This document shows, one piece after another, positions 9,533 to 33,892 of a DNA stretch of 40,515 nt (position 1 is the stretch's first letter; every line of letters begins with the position of its first letter). Made by a program: the position numbers and the translations under genes. Source of the DNA: a gamma proteobacterium HTCC2207 (GTDB taxonomy: Bacteria > Pseudomonadota > Gammaproteobacteria > Pseudomonadales > Porticoccaceae); NCBI GenBank assembly GCA_905181925.1, contig CAJIZU010000089.1, positions 1 to 40,515 of the forward strand, read 5' to 3'. The notes beneath the pieces were generated by a model. It worked only from the letters and a program-made list of their open reading frames with translations, made no database searches and was not told the DNA's origin.

Positions 9533-9703
9533 ATGTTTAATTATCGATTAGTTGCAACACTACTACTGCTAAGTATTGTCGTTTTTCCTCTTGCTATCCA
9601 ATGGGCATTAGAGCCCTCTGGACATTGGTTCAGGGTTTTTTTAGTCTGGGGATTGTTAGTTTTTTTCACGTTTACATTACAGCGTGAGCGAAGCAAAGAA
9701 TGA
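9533..9703 (+). CDS. cbrX: CbrX-like small membrane protein (56 aa)
   Basis: ORF below the supplied track's length cutoff: MFNYRLVATLLLLSIVVFPLAIQWALEPSGHWFRVFLVWGLLVFFTFTLQRERSKE*. The stop TGA (9701-9703) overlaps the cbrA ATG (9700) as ATGA. Same position as cbrX upstream of cbrA in Pseudomonas. Confidence 0.75.
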   Translation: MFNYRLVATLLLLSIVVFPLAIQWALEPSGHWFRVFLVWGLLVFFTFTLQRERSKE

Positions 9704-12570
9704 GCATCCAGATTGTCTTTTTTACAACACTAATTATTTTTATCGCTTGCTCCGTCACACGGACAATCAATGCAAGGAATGACTCCAAAAGTCAGAATCT
9801 TATTTTATCGCTAGCTCTTTTTGCAAGTACCGGCGTGCTTCTCGCAACGAGTTCGATTGAGATGGCAGGCCGCTACGGTTACACCATGATCTTAGCTTTG
9901 TTCGGTTTCTCTCTGGTTTTTGTTATCGCACCTCTAGTGCTATTTCCCATTCGCCGCCTCAGTAGCATAGTCAGATTAGCAACCTCAGTAGATTTTTTAA
10001 CGTTTCGATACCGAGGGAAAAACGTCGCCATTGTTAGTTGTTTAGCAACCACACTGTCTATTATCCCACTCGTTGTTGCCCAAATACTGGCGACAGATTC
10101 CTTGGTCGATAATATTTTTAATTCTAGCATGAAGCCAATTACCTGCTTGCTCTTGCTTATAGCGGTAAGCGTAACTGTCAGACAATCGCTTAAAGTCGGT
10201 ATTGCCCAACAACTTAGATGGATTATGGCGGCAGCAGGACTCTTACTTATAATCGCAGTAAGTCTGTCAACATGGATTGCAGTCACCGCAGAATTTGGCA
10301 GTATTTCTCAAATGAACGCATGGGTGGTCGATAGCGGCCAACAAACAATTGTTAAACGTTTCGATTCGTCATATAGCATATTTATAATTTTTCTGGCCGC
10401 AGGCATATCCTTTCCAGCTAACTTCAATATGCTTGTTTCTGATGCTATATCCGACCGTCAAGCTAGCACTATGTCCTGGGCATACCCATTGCTGATGCTT
10501 TTAGCCTGCATCCCTATTTTTCCATTATTATGGAGTGGGCTATCATTACAATCTAACTCCACATTTCAAGAATATCTTTTTGCATTGCCACTGGCACTCG
10601 AGCAACCACTAATTGCCAGTCTCGGTGCCGCCAGCATCATTCTTTTAGCGCTAGCTCTCTGCTGCAGTTTAATCATGTTCTCCACAAGAATGATTCTTAA
10701 TAGTTTCGTATTACCCGGCAAGAAACTGTCTGAGCCAAAAAATTTAACGCAATGGATTGATCGACGCTATTTTACGATTTCACTCGGGTTAATGTTGTTT
10801 TGTATCCTGCTAAGCTTCGTGGCCAAAACTCGCAGTATTACTGATCTATATCTAGTCGGTTTTGCTGGATTAGCGCAATTAATGCCCGGAATGATAGCTG
10901 CTATCTACTTACCGAAAGCGAGTAGAAAAGGATTTATCGCTGGGCTCTCAGCAGGTATGTTTGTGTGGCTAGTGACTCTGGCATTACCCTTAATATTTGG
11001 TGATTGGTACTGGCAAGTACCATTGATTGAAAAGCCATTACTATTTGGAATGCAGGCTTGGGAAGCCTGGTCTATTGAGGCCTTGATGCTCAACATTACT
11101 CTTTGTACCTTATTTTCTATTTTCAGCAAAATGGATGAGCAACAAAAGAATTTCGCCACCATCTGTATGGCCGATAATGTTTACATACCGATACGCGTAG
11201 AGCTAAAACAAAAAAGTATTGCTGAAATGAAGCAACAGCTATTTCTGGTACTCGGTCAAGAAGCTGACACTGAAATTCAATCCGCTTTAAGTAGCCTTAA
11301 GTTTGATACTAATGAATTACGGCCAGGAGCATTACGAAAGATTAGGGATACCATTAATGCCTCGTTAAATATGCGTTTTGGCGTGCTTGCTGCAGATAGT
11401 ATAATGAGCCAAGCACTCCCTCTTCCTTCGTCCTCTGGCACCCAGCAAGAAGATATATTCCTGCTTGAATCCGTGCTGGCAGTTCAAGGCGATCAATTAA
11501 CTGGTATTGCCAGCGAGCTGAATAAACTTCGCGTACACCACCGTGAAATATTGGATAAATTGCCCATCGGCGTTATTGCACTGGCCCAAAATGGAGAAAT
11601 TCTGAAGTGGAATGCAGCTATCTCAAACTATACCCAAATAGACCCCAGTAGCGCGTCAGGAAGTTTGGTCAGAGATCTACCTGACCCCTGGAAATCAGAG
11701 ATTACTTCATTTTTAGTCAGTGATGAGGCTAGCAGAGATAACGTTCGCTTAGACATAAATGGCAGTATTCGTTGGTTCAGTTTTCAAAAATCGACACAAA
11801 TATCGATGGAAGAAATCAATGACAATATTATTCTGCTGGTCGAGGAAAAAACTCAATCCGTGATGTTAATTCAAAAATCAATCGACAATGAGCGTCTTGC
11901 ATCGATGGGTCGACTGGCGGCAGGCGTAGCACATGAGATAGGTAATCCAGTCACCGGAATAGCTTGTATTGCCCAAAACCTAGAACACGAGATGGAACCA
12001 GAACAAATTAGCGAATCCGCGCAACATATTCTCTCCCAAACTGATCGTATTAAACGGATCGTTGATTCACTGATTAATTTTTCACGCGGAGAAACGCCTA
12101 AAGGGCGTCATTTCAAGAGAGTCAATCTTAAGGAAGCATGTGAAGAAGCCATACAACTCATAACGCTTGCCGATCATGCGTCAACACTCTCCTTTAGCTG
12201 CCTCATAGCGCCAAACTTAAATATATTGGGCGACTATCATCAACTTATCCAAGTCTTTCTAAATCTACTCAGTAATAGCCGAGACGCTTCACCACCCAAC
12301 AGTGCGATCACAATATTGGCAAATTCTCTAGATGAAAAAATACGGGTTACTATAAATGACTCGGGCACAGGTATCGCAGAAAATCTTCAATCACAATTGT
12401 TCGAGCCCTTCGTTACATCCAAAGACCCTGGAAAAGGAACCGGACTAGGTCTGTGGGTTGTATTTAATCTAGTTAAGGGCCTCGGCGCTGAAATTACTAT
12501 TTCAAGTCCCGCGCAAAATAGTAGCTGCGGTACCACCGTTGCGCTAACCTTTAATAAATTGGAAGAGTAA
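9700..12570 (+). CDS. cbrA: CbrA-like sensor histidine kinase with N-terminal Na+/solute symporter (SLC5) domain
   Basis: Multi-TM N-terminus, PAS-like region, H-box RLASMGRLAAGVAHEIGNPVTG, N/G boxes NLLSNSRDA, DSGTGIA, GKGTGLGLWVV; gluQRS-cbrX-cbrA-cbrB-pcnB synteny. Confidence 0.9.
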   Translation: MSIQIVFFTTLIIFIACSVTRTINARNDSKSQNLILSLALFASTGVLLATSSIEMAGRYGYTMILALFGFSLVFVIAPLVLFPIRRLSSIVRLATSVDFLTFRYRGKNVAIVSCLATTLSIIPLVVAQILATDSLVDNIFNSSMKPITCLLLLIAVSVTVRQSLKVGIAQQLRWIMAAAGLLLIIAVSLSTWIAVTAEFGSISQMNAWVVDSGQQTIVKRFDSSYSIFIIFLAAGISFPANFNMLVSDAISDRQASTMSWAYPLLMLLACIPIFPLLWSGLSLQSNSTFQEYLFALPLALEQPLIASLGAASIILLALALCCSLIMFSTRMILNSFVLPGKKLSEPKNLTQWIDRRYFTISLGLMLFCILLSFVAKTRSITDLYLVGFAGLAQLMPGMIAAIYLPKASRKGFIAGLSAGMFVWLVTLALPLIFGDWYWQVPLIEKPLLFGMQAWEAWSIEALMLNITLCTLFSIFSKMDEQQKNFATICMADNVYIPIRVELKQKSIAEMKQQLFLVLGQEADTEIQSALSSLKFDTNELRPGALRKIRDTINASLNMRFGVLAADSIMSQALPLPSSSGTQQEDIFLLESVLAVQGDQLTGIASELNKLRVHHREILDKLPIGVIALAQNGEILKWNAAISNYTQIDPSSASGSLVRDLPDPWKSEITSFLVSDEASRDNVRLDINGSIRWFSFQKSTQISMEEINDNIILLVEEKTQSVMLIQKSIDNERLASMGRLAAGVAHEIGNPVTGIACIAQNLEHEMEPEQISESAQHILSQTDRIKRIVDSLINFSRGETPKGRHFKRVNLKEACEEAIQLITLADHASTLSFSCLIAPNLNILGDYHQLIQVFLNLLSNSRDASPPNSAITILANSLDEKIRVTINDSGTGIAENLQSQLFEPFVTSKDPGKGTGLGLWVVFNLVKGLGAEITISSPAQNSSCGTTVALTFNKLEE

Positions 12571-12638: not shown

Positions 12639-13907
12639 GTGAACCCACCAAGTAAAAGAATTTTAGTCGTAGAGGATGAAGAGATAATTCGTATTTCTTT
12701 AGTCAAGCTCCTCGAACGACACCACTATAAGGCATCACAGGCAGTGAGTGTCAAAGCGGCTTTAAATAACTTCAACCTTAACGAGTTTGATTTAATCATC
12801 AGTGACCTGCGACTCCCAGGAGGCTCCGGAGCAGAACTCATTGGCGCTACAGGTAGTGTGCCAGTTCTAATTATGACTAGTTTTGCAAGTTTAAGATCAG
12901 CCGTAGATATTATGCGAAAGGGTGCTGCAGATTACATATCTAAACCATTCGATCATGAAGAATTGATGGGCTCGGTGAAACGAATCATAGATCATGAGAC
13001 CCATAAAAAGGCATCACTCAACGCAACACAAGATCCTCTAGTAGGGAATAGTGAAGCAACAATCGGCATTTTAAATACTATTAGTAAGGTCGCACCTACC
13101 AAGGCCCCAGTTCTAATTTCAGGGGAAGTTGGCAGCGGCAAGTTCGCTATTGCCCGAACGATCCACCATGCCAGCGCTCTTTGTAATGGATTTTTATCGG
13201 TAATCAATTGTGCGACTGTGACTGCAGAGGAAATTAATCAATATCTTGATCTTGCGGGAGACGGGAATGAACCCACCACTATTTTTTTAAGGGACATATG
13301 CCACCTTCCGGTCACTTTAAGTGCCCATGTATTAAGATTGACCAAAAGTACGTCGATACGCTGCCTAGCATCTACGACTAAAAACCTACGTGAACTGTGC
13401 AACTCAGGTCAATTTTGTCCCAATCTATTACTCTCAATTGATGCTGTTAATATCCAAGTTCCTCCATTGAGAGAGCGACCATCAGATATCATTCAATTGA
13501 CAGATGCTTTTTTAGCGCATTTCAGTAATGAGCTAAACTTCGACGTTACGATATCTAAAGACAGCAGGCATCTACTAAGTCAAAATAATTGGCCTGGCAA
13601 TATTAGAGAACTCAAGAACACTCTTTATCAGGCTGCCATTCTGCTGGAGAAAGGCCAGTCGATCTCTCCCTCAACCTTAAAAATAAATGGTCAATCGCCA
13701 AGCTCTATCCAAAAACGGCAGCTGACGCTATCAACTATGGCGGAGAGTGGAGAGGATGCCGCATCTTTAACAAATTATTTTACCCAGTTCGTGTTAGACA
13801 ATCAGTCCACTATGAGCGAAACAGTACTAGCGGAGAAATTGGGTATTAGCCGTAAAAGCCTCTGGCAGCGACGCAATAAACTTGGGATTAGCCGTAAAAC
13901 CGATTAA
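12639..13907 (+). CDS. cbrB: CbrB-like response regulator (REC, divergent AAA+, Fis-type HTH) lacking the GAFTGA region
   Basis: REC domain ILVVEDEE...IISDLRLP...ISKPFD; Walker A GEVGSGK; PPLRERPSDI; NWPGNIRELKN; C-terminal HTH AEKLGISRKSLWQRRNKLGI. GTG start at 12639. Confidence 0.88.
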   Translation: MNPPSKRILVVEDEEIIRISLVKLLERHHYKASQAVSVKAALNNFNLNEFDLIISDLRLPGGSGAELIGATGSVPVLIMTSFASLRSAVDIMRKGAADYISKPFDHEELMGSVKRIIDHETHKKASLNATQDPLVGNSEATIGILNTISKVAPTKAPVLISGEVGSGKFAIARTIHHASALCNGFLSVINCATVTAEEINQYLDLAGDGNEPTTIFLRDICHLPVTLSAHVLRLTKSTSIRCLASTTKNLRELCNSGQFCPNLLLSIDAVNIQVPPLRERPSDIIQLTDAFLAHFSNELNFDVTISKDSRHLLSQNNWPGNIRELKNTLYQAAILLEKGQSISPSTLKINGQSPSSIQKRQLTLSTMAESGEDAASLTNYFTQFVLDNQSTMSETVLAEKLGISRKSLWQRRNKLGISRKTD

Positions 13908-13965: not shown

Positions 13966-13994
13966 TTGAACTGGATAGATTTATAACTGAGAAT
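13966..13994 (+). promoter_or_regulatory. possible weak sigma70-like promoter for the candidate sRNA
   Basis: TTGAAC (13966-13971), 17-nt spacer, GAGAAT (13989-13994); the implied +1 falls near 14001, at the start of the first hairpin. Each box matches consensus at 4 of 6 positions. Confidence 0.3.
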
Positions 13995-14020
13995 AGGATT
14001 TCCACACGATTAGTGTGGGT

Positions 14021-14047
14021 AATAATAATAAATAATAATAATAATAA
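14021..14047 (+). repeat. AAT trinucleotide tract (ARN repeats)
   Basis: AATAATAATAAATAATAATAATAATAA read directly. Confidence 0.95.
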
Positions 14048-14095
14048 CGTTGGATTGCGATAGGGTTTGGTAGGCTTAGGCCTCAAAGCTCATTT

Positions 14096-14124
14096 AAAGG
14101 GGCTGTCTTTGGACAGCCCCTTTT
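14096..14124 (+). terminator. intrinsic (rho-independent) terminator
   Basis: AAAGGGGCTGTC-TTTG-GACAGCCCCTTTT: 12-bp perfect stem, 4-nt loop, T tract. Confidence 0.9.
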
Positions 14125-14248: not shown

Positions 14249-15604
14249 ATGCTTAAGCGCATCATCAACTTTTTTGACGATAAAACGAAATCATCAAGTC
14301 CATCAGTCACAGATGGTGCCACCTACTCTCTAGCCGCTAACATGATTAGCAGAGATGCTAGAAAAGTCGTGGAAACTCTCCAAAACGCTGGATTCGACGC
14401 CTATATTGTCGGCGGAGCAGTGCGAGATTTACTACTTGGCATCAAACCTAAAGATTTTGATGTGGCCACTAACGCAGAACCTGCAGAAGTGAAATCTTTG
14501 TTCAGACGTTCAAGAATCATTGGGCGCAGATTCCAAATTGTTCACGTACAGTTCAGCCGCGAACTCATTGAAGTAACCACTTTCCGATCAAACGACCAAG
14601 CGGGCCAAGATGCGGGAAAGAAAAATATTGGGCTGAGACAGCAAAGTAAGACTGGAATGCTGACTCGGGATAATGTTTTCGGATCAATGCATGAAGATGC
14701 GAGCCGACGGGATCTCACGGTTAATGCGCTCTACTACAACCCAAGTGACAATAGCATCCATGACTTCACTAGTGGATTGGATGATATCAACAACCGAACT
14801 ATTCGAATTATTGGAGACCCGTCGACTCGCTATCGAGAGGATCCAGTGCGACTTCTTCGTGTAGTGCGTTTTGCGGCTAAGCTAGGGTTTGATATCGACT
14901 CACGCACAGCAAAACCGATGAGTAAATTATCTGCTGATTTGGCCCAGGTATCGCCACCTCGATTATTTGATGAAACACTAAAATTATTTATGAGCGGAAA
15001 AGGCGCGGCAATCTTCATCCTGCTGCGAGATTATAACCTCTTCGATTATTTAGTTCCCCAAGCTAGTCGTTTAGCGAATGATGGTAGTAATAATGCCAAT
15101 AATTTATTTGAGCAGGCATTTATCAATACTGATCGTCGTATTAGTTCAAATCAGAGAGTTACTCCAGCCTTTATTTATGCCGCGTTACTCTGGCCCTCGG
15201 TAGAAAAATTAGCCGCACAGCTAAGTGACAAAGGAAATTCAGCCAGCTATGCACTGAGCAAAGCATCCAGTGAAGTAATTTCTCAGCAGGTTCATATAAC
15301 CGCTATTCCAAAACGCTTTACAATTCCGATGCGTGAAATTTGGGATTTACAATTGCAGTTGCCTAGACGCGGTGGGCAGCGTGCGAAACGCCTATCAGAG
15401 AACACTCGTTTTCGAGCTGGATACGACTTTATTTTACTGCGTGAACAAGCCGGGGAAAATCTTGATGGCTTAGGCCAGTGGTGGACAACATACCAGGAGG
15501 TTAATCCTGAAGAACAGCAACAGATGGCTGATGACGCAGGTAAAGCGGTAAAGAAAAGGCGTCGTAGCCGGGGCCCCAGAAAGAAAAAAGTCTCTGAAGA
15601 CTAA
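14249..15604 (+). CDS. pcnB: poly(A) polymerase I
   Basis: AYIVGGAVRDLLLGIKPKDFDVATNAEPAEVKSLFRRSRIIGRRFQIVHV; basic C-terminus KKRRRSRGPRKKK. Confidence 0.94.
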   Translation: MLKRIINFFDDKTKSSSPSVTDGATYSLAANMISRDARKVVETLQNAGFDAYIVGGAVRDLLLGIKPKDFDVATNAEPAEVKSLFRRSRIIGRRFQIVHVQFSRELIEVTTFRSNDQAGQDAGKKNIGLRQQSKTGMLTRDNVFGSMHEDASRRDLTVNALYYNPSDNSIHDFTSGLDDINNRTIRIIGDPSTRYREDPVRLLRVVRFAAKLGFDIDSRTAKPMSKLSADLAQVSPPRLFDETLKLFMSGKGAAIFILLRDYNLFDYLVPQASRLANDGSNNANNLFEQAFINTDRRISSNQRVTPAFIYAALLWPSVEKLAAQLSDKGNSASYALSKASSEVISQQVHITAIPKRFTIPMREIWDLQLQLPRRGGQRAKRLSENTRFRAGYDFILLREQAGENLDGLGQWWTTYQEVNPEEQQQMADDAGKAVKKRRRSRGPRKKKVSED

Positions 15605-32951: not shown

Positions 32952-33839
32952 ATGACTGTATCTACAGAACCTATGCCAAGTCTTAGCTTGCCCTCACCGG
33001 CCAAAATTAATCTATTTCTACACATCACCGGTCAGCGCGACAACGGTTATCACGATCTACAAACTATTTTTCAGTTGCTTGATTTTGGCGACAATCTCAC
33101 TTTTTATCCCAATGAGTCCGGAAAAATACATTTAAACGGTAATATCGATGGCGTTGATGAAAAAAATAATTTAATTGTTCGTGCTGCAAAATTACTTCAG
33201 AGTTCAACAGGATGCTCTAAAGGTTGTACTATTGAACTGGACAAAAAACTACCTTTGGGAGCTGGATTAGGCGGTGGAAGCAGCAATGCGGCGACTTCGC
33301 TTGTAGCTCTAAATGCCCTTTGGGAATGCGGTCTAGCGACGGATGTTCTTGCTGAACTAGGGGAAAAACTCGGTGCAGATGTACCGGTTTTCATTTATGG
33401 TCAGAGTGCATTCGCAGAAGGAATCGGGGAAATATTGACGCCCATGGAACTACCAAAAAAGTGGTTTTTGGTGGTAACACCTGATTGCCAAGTGTCGACT
33501 GAGGAAATTTTTTCACATCCTCAATTGACAAGGAACTCTTCACCGATCAAAATACGCGCCCTCTCAGAGGGACAGTACAGAAACGACTGTCAAAAGGTAG
33601 TAGTCAGTCTCTACCCAGCGGTTGAAAAAGCGCTGAAATGGGCAGAAAATTTTGCAGCCCCTCTGATGACAGGAACAGGTGCAAGCGTATTTTGTAGCTT
33701 TGACAACCAAGCAGAGGCCAACAGGGCTCTTGCCGAACTGCCAGAGAAATGGAGTGGGTTTGTGGCGAAGAGTGTGAATAGCTCCTCGCTACACCTAAAA
33801 TTGAGTGAGTTTTTTACTGGGGCGTGGCCAAGCGGTTAA
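32952..33839 (+). CDS. ispE: 4-(cytidine 5'-diphospho)-2-C-methyl-D-erythritol kinase
   Basis: [33 protein letters not shown]...[18 protein letters not shown]...MTGTGASVF. Confidence 0.96.
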
Positions 33840-33892
33840 GGCAACGGGTTTTGATCCCGTCATCGGAGGTTCGATCCCTCCCGCCCCAGCCA
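33818..33892 (+). tRNA. tRNA-Gln (anticodon TTG), CCA encoded
   Basis: Cloverleaf by eye: acceptor TGGGGCG/CGCCCCA, anticodon stem ACGGG/CCCGT with loop TTTTGAT, T-arm GGAGG-TTCGATC-CCTCC, discriminator G plus CCA. Confidence 0.96.

Follow-up and report, generated by a model that had tools for sequence, protein, structure and literature searches.

A predicted small RNA between cbrB and pcnB in the marine SAR92 clade, a probable shortened descendant of CrcZ-type RNAs

CbrB of Pseudomonas is an NtrC-type activator of sigma-54, and the GAFTGA loop is the contact with sigma-54. The combination of CbrAB with the small RNA CrcZ has been called unique to Pseudomonas and Azotobacter in a review (PMC8871633). 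In P. aeruginosa CrcZ sequesters Hfq, whose distal face takes ARN triplets, with an 18-nt segment of six ARN triplets filling one hexamer (PMC9890229). The subsites described for CbrB are TGTTAC and GTAACA (PMC6296734). A second point of comparison is provided by the class II Hfq sRNAs of enterobacteria, among them ChiX and MgrR. ChiX is laid out as a 5′ hairpin, an A-rich tract, an unpaired block and a terminator. MgrR is named as a class II Hfq sRNA in PMC6239178.

The window, a stretch of 40,515 nt from a genome of the SAR92/HTCC2207 clade of the Porticoccaceae (hereafter the genus), carries homologues of dksA, gluQ, cbrA, cbrB, pcnB and folK in that order. The gap between cbrB and pcnB is 341 bp long and holds a putative promoter, a 5′ hairpin, an AAT tract, a conserved block and a terminator. 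The features are as follows.

9700..12570, + strand: cbrA homologue, an ORF for a sensor kinase of 956 aa with PAS, HisKA and HATPase_c domains
12639..13907, + strand: cbrB homologue, 422 aa, with a receiver, a degenerate AAA+ domain without the GAFTGA loop and a conserved C-terminal HTH
13966..13994, + strand: sigma-70-like promoter predicted from sequence and congener conservation; TTGAAC (13966-13971), 17-nt spacer, GAGAAT (13989-13994)
14001..14124, + strand: predicted small RNA of about 124 nt, from conservation, covariation and covariance-model matches in congeners
14002..14018, + strand: 5′ hairpin, CCACAC (14002-14007) with GTGTGG (14013-14018); two-sided changes in 4/5 modelled pairs across congeners
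14020..14048, + strand: ARN (AAT) tract TAATAATAATAAATAATAATAATAATAAC, 29 nt, nine triplets (4 + 5 with a one-base slip between), predicted Hfq distal-face site; A columns invariant in 19 congeners
14049..14062, + strand: block GTTGGATTGCGATA, conserved and largely unpaired, reading GGATGGATTGCGAAAG in the majority of congeners; from alignments and sister-genus RNAs
14063..14091, + strand: middle hairpin, inner stem AGGC/GCCT, from the fold; two-sided changes in 3/4 inner pairs
14096..14124, + strand: intrinsic terminator with a short T-run, from the fold and a conserved helix; 12-bp stem AAAGGGGCTGTC (14096-14107) with GACAGCCCCTTT (14112-14123)
14249..15604, + strand: pcnB homologue, the constant downstream neighbour of the RNA by synteny

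The initial annotation had placed the promoter, the CCACAC/GTGTGG hairpin, the AAT tract and the 12-bp-stem terminator in this gap, and their coordinates were confirmed; the tract carries multiple ARN motifs as described, although it measures 29 nt and not 27 nt. All of the parts it listed are present, but the GGATGGATTGC block and the persistence of the RNA after loss of cbrAB had escaped it. Its view that the gap holds no credible ORF also stands, as the short ORFs in the element show no in-frame conservation among congeners. The T-run past the terminator is short in the window (TTTTGC) and reads TTTTT(T) in many relatives. The sole tRNA gene found in the window, a tRNA-Gln (TTG), lies at 33818-33892 on the + strand.

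Several lines of comparison indicate that a small-RNA gene conserved in the SAR92 clade lies in the gap, its transcript being predicted. The fold of the 159-nt stretch from promoter to terminator is more stable than that of shuffles by about 4 sd (z = −3.98), and the AAT tract occurs once in the 40-kb window, with 0 occurrences expected. The element is present in 20 of the 23 congener cbrB-pcnB gaps extracted, the remaining three gaps being 89 bp long. In an alignment of 19 predicted transcripts the A positions are invariant throughout the tract, the block TTGGATGGATTGCGAAAG that follows is largely unpaired, and there are three helices; two-sided changes are found in 11/20 helix pairs and 96.8 % of helix cells pair, a level that none of 500 shuffles reaches. 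The hairpin and the A-rich tract are conserved in relatives. Identity of the RNA to the three closest congeners is 93–94 %, against 58–70 % for the spacer before it and 64–84 % for the spacer after it. A covariance-model search of related genomes, suggested at the outset, gave matches at E ≤ 1e-10 in 37 of the 50 genomes of the genus, a count that includes the training sequences, with 18 or so genomes lying outside the training set. Within a 392-genome sample of the order, matches at E ≤ 1e-6 were confined to the Porticoccaceae. At every locus read with pcnB on the contig, the RNA lies directly upstream of pcnB. Weak covariance-model matches elsewhere (about 20–38 bits) were considered as second copies and rejected; nearly all of those read are terminators of other genes without an A-rich tract.

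The promoter, proposed initially as a weak TTGAAC-N17-GAGAAT match, gains weight from its conservation: the −35 TTG is nearly invariant in congeners, the distance from promoter to tract is fixed across them, and relatives carry a closer match than the weak one of the window. In several gaps of genomes without cbrAB or without cbrA, a promoter scan returned weak matches only.

The protein partners of a CrcZ circuit are altered in the genus. The named relatives of the window CbrB, at 56–78 % identity, come from MAGs labelled ‘Porticoccaceae bacterium’, ‘gamma proteobacterium HTCC2207’ and ‘uncultured Cellvibrionales bacterium’, and on this basis the genus is equated with the SAR92/HTCC2207 clade. 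By sequence the window CbrB is without the sigma-54-contact loop; the GAFTGA loop is absent from 23/23 aligned genus CbrBs, which also show a second deletion and an altered Walker B motif with a strongly kept HTH. The loop is kept in 7 aligned outgroups of the order and at 8 further outgroup loci (one genome being in both sets). Pfam Sigma54_activat covers positions 1–66 of 168 in the window CbrB, as against 1–167 in the protein of sister genus g24. The CbrB homologues at loci L074, L076, L077, L082, L083, L100 and L116, of about 190–210 aa, lack the AAA+ domain entirely and consist of a receiver joined to a Fis-type HTH. This is the layout of PrrA/ActR-type regulators. Loss of RpoN was considered as the cause and rejected: RpoN is kept in 47/50 congeners, and what is seen is therefore not sigma-54 loss. 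Hfq is present in 47/48 genus genomes, and the three proteins read carry G29, I30, K31 and F25. The 48 genus genomes (30 of them at least 90 % complete, some being incomplete MAGs) yielded no Crc; the query, its identity confirmed through a PDB search, returned just ExoIII-like matches of 25–29 % identity and E no better than 8.9e-15. As a control, the same query gave a clear Crc in 17/21 outgroups of the order, with two borderline (E 1e-31 to 1e-35). It detected Crc in sister genera g23 and g24, and found none in sister genera g25 and g26.

Across the order, cbrB-pcnB gaps are often CrcZ-like, with TGTTAC/GTAACA sites, a TGGCA-N8-GC sigma-54 element, ARN clusters and a terminator. In one such gap (genome G054, locus L181) the Rfam CrcZ model scores 306.8 bits, and the Crc of that genome shares 86 % identity with the P. 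aeruginosa query. With this gap as positive control, RF01675 gave no match on the window element at either the gathering or a permissive threshold, and the whole of Rfam, at the same two thresholds, gave nothing meaningful; the RF01675 model is narrow, in that other CrcZ-like gaps of the order are missed or fall below its cut-off. Sister genera of the Porticoccaceae supply the intermediates. In g23 and g24 the RNA is short, the sigma-54 element is still there and GGATGGATTGC already follows the A-rich part. The gaps of g25, g26 and the SAR92 genus no longer have the sigma-54 element, and their tract is preceded by a sigma-70-like promoter; TGGCA-N8-GC is missing from 35/36 gaps of the SAR92 genus, the remaining match being chance-like. 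A PcnB tree joins g25, g26 and SAR92 in one clade (support 0.97–0.99), in which GAFTGA, Crc and the sigma-54 element are all absent. On this tree the receiver-HTH form of CbrB appears in about four separate places and loss of cbrAB in two, counts that are approximate because the tree is of one protein, partly incomplete and with some weak nodes. The losses are not strictly coupled, since in one g24 genome (G157, locus L116) CbrB consists of receiver and HTH, yet Crc and the sigma-54 element are present. The gaps at L187 (G037) and L184 (G042) hold other short sigma-54-driven RNAs, so that CrcZ-like RNAs have become shorter outside SAR92 as well.

Synteny, sister-genus intermediates and the PcnB tree together support the RNA as a shortened descendant of CrcZ-type RNAs; direct alignment to Pseudomonas CrcZ is impossible. 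CrcZ (RF01675; also CrcY and CrcX; Pseudomonas and Azotobacter) shares with it the cbrB-pcnB position, ARN-rich Hfq-type sites and an intrinsic terminator, and is linked to it via those intermediates. The differences are considerable: the SAR92 RNA would be about 124 nt long as against about 400 nt, and has a sigma-70-like rather than a CbrB-activated sigma-54 promoter. Its one consolidated tract of nine triplets (counted as two adjoining runs) compares with 5 clusters and 21 triplets in the Rfam-called CrcZ gap, in keeping with the initial description of one long tract in place of dispersed motifs. CrcZ counteracts Hfq together with Crc, whereas the SAR92 RNA sits in genomes without Crc; the conserved block and 5′ hairpin are its own. 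The suggestion of a minimal CrcZ relative therefore holds as to descent but not as to circuit, with Crc, the sigma-54 element and GAFTGA all absent. The RNA is a relative of CrcZ by descent and is not a member of the family by Rfam, promoter or Crc partnership.

The gene contexts vary. The commonest is cbrA, cbrB without GAFTGA, the RNA and pcnB. Five genomes have cbrA, a CbrB of about 190 aa (receiver and HTH only), the RNA and pcnB; five small genomes have dksA and gluQ followed, with no cbrAB, by the RNA and pcnB; and two have gluQ, a divergent CbrB with no cbrA, the RNA and pcnB. In a subclade of about eight genomes CbrB is present, the gap is short and the RNA has been lost. These five contexts show that the RNA persists without CbrAB and that CbrB persists without the RNA. 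The loci lacking the RNA include L088-L094 (G056, G065, G023, G070, G057, G001 and G062), with a gap of 89 bp in most, and form a natural control group for RNA loss; a relocated copy of the RNA was looked for in this 89-bp-gap subclade and none was found. Some gaps of the genus, among them those of the two genomes with divergent CbrB and no cbrA, have palindromes of the form GTTTC-N5-GTAAC or GTTAC-N5-GTAAC ahead of the promoter; the window has none. These palindromes may be compared with the CbrB subsites TGTTAC and GTAACA (PMC6296734). SAR92 and Pseudomonas CbrB share a receiver and a C-terminal HTH, but in SAR92 the GAFTGA loop is deleted or the entire AAA+ domain is excised, leaving a receiver and a Fis-type HTH.

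The best reading of these observations, and one we consider probable though not strongly so, is that the RNA acts as a sigma-70-driven decoy for the distal face of Hfq, working without Crc and descended from CrcZ. An RNA of about 124 nt, going back to the CrcZ-type RNAs that CbrB and sigma-54 drive in the order, would be transcribed from the sigma-70 promoter; its ARN tract would sit on the distal face of the Hfq hexamer, while the 5′ hairpin and the terminator would shield the RNA ends. By competing for Hfq with the A-rich leaders of mRNAs, it would lift the repression that Hfq exerts on translation of uptake genes, without Crc. The supply of RNA may be either constitutive or tuned by CbrB as an ordinary receiver-HTH regulator.

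A scan of leaders in 427 ortholog pairs of two congeners (G026 and G019), requiring at least 4 AAN triplets in a run between −50 and +20 of the start, found conserved AAN runs in 5 pairs as against 0.1 in shuffles that ignore shared ancestry, while none of the other 15 XYN patterns gave any; the choice of these leader tests followed inspection of the data. As judged by eye from N-termini, the genes whose A-rich leaders are conserved include a proteorhodopsin, a Na+:neurotransmitter-symporter-type protein and MFS-type transporters. In the leader of the proteorhodopsin-like gene (pair a444/b443; G026 contig C1, G019 contig C2) the sequences AATAATAAAAA/AATAAAAATAAA form a possible Hfq distal-face site. 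Genes with AAN leaders are enriched for polytopic membrane proteins (Fisher P 0.004 and 0.015), an enrichment that is suggestive only because an unphased A-rich control is likewise enriched (P 0.03 and 0.015). Conserved AAN runs before transporter and proteorhodopsin genes weakly support a decoy. A wider scheme, which we put forward tentatively and hold to be rather doubtful, is Crc-free catabolite control: Hfq alone would repress mRNAs with AAN leaders (proteorhodopsin, sugar and amino-acid transporters) and the sigma-70 CrcZ descendant would relieve the repression. Once its RNA target had passed to a sigma-70 promoter, CbrB may have lost the sigma-54 engine, and streamlined genomes would keep the RNA without CbrAB input.

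Some observations speak against a decoy. One tract is left, where most CrcZ-like RNAs have several ARN clusters, and the titration capacity per molecule would therefore be small; the RNA has been lost from the subclade of about eight genomes; and a pure decoy does not explain the conserved block. The main rival, possible but on balance unlikely, is a class II Hfq-dependent base-pairing sRNA resembling ChiX and MgrR, in which the tract docks on Hfq and the block UUGGAUGGAUUGCGAAAG serves as seed for target mRNAs. The architecture is ChiX-like, with a 5′ hairpin, an A-rich distal-face site, a mostly unpaired conserved block and a terminator; the class II features of an A-rich distal-face motif and a Rho-independent terminator on a short RNA are seen here in sequence and fold only. 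Docking fits a single tract better than titration does, and the block is nearly identical family-wide while the remaining RNA diverges. However, the block differs between subclades, a partial scan of 13 genomes turned up no antisense site to the 18-nt block shared by orthologues, and in a partial comparative duplex scan of the 427 ortholog pairs the real seed did not outperform 12 permuted seeds. The resemblance to ChiX and MgrR is one of layout, the partial target scans being empty and Rfam giving no match. The decoy reading is favoured over base pairing.

It is improbable that the element is a mere conserved read-through terminator region, a processed cbrB 3′ end or a pcnB leader element and not an independent regulatory RNA. 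The position directly between cbrB and pcnB would allow it, and transcription reading through from the cbrB promoter adds to CrcZ levels in P. putida (PMC8871633), but the RNA has its own conserved promoter, is retained where cbrAB is missing and gluQ adjoins upstream, and its conservation ends at the terminator, more than 120 bp short of pcnB. An ordinary CrcZ in the known CbrAB/sigma-54/Crc/Hfq circuit has the gene gap and the A-rich Hfq-type motif in common with this RNA, but Crc in 0/48 genus genomes, the missing sigma-54 element, a CbrB without GAFTGA and the absent RF01675 match make it very improbable indeed.

Many families of the order are found here to have the CrcZ-type layout, which in one marine clade is seen dismantled and rewired: Crc gone, the activator without its sigma-54 loop or without the entire AAA+ domain, the promoter switched and the RNA shortened but kept. 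Because the predicted Hfq-binding tract is kept although Crc, the sigma-54 promoter and sometimes the regulator are gone, a well-known nutrient-preference switch appears to be undergoing rewiring. The clade offers a natural test of how a CrcZ-type RNA may act in the absence of Crc, and of why such an RNA is kept when its regulator is lost. An Hfq decoy would further suggest a link between Hfq and the translation of proteorhodopsin and transporters in SAR92. SAR92 is a common and abundant clade of the ocean; if the proposal is true, Crc-free catabolite control would operate there.
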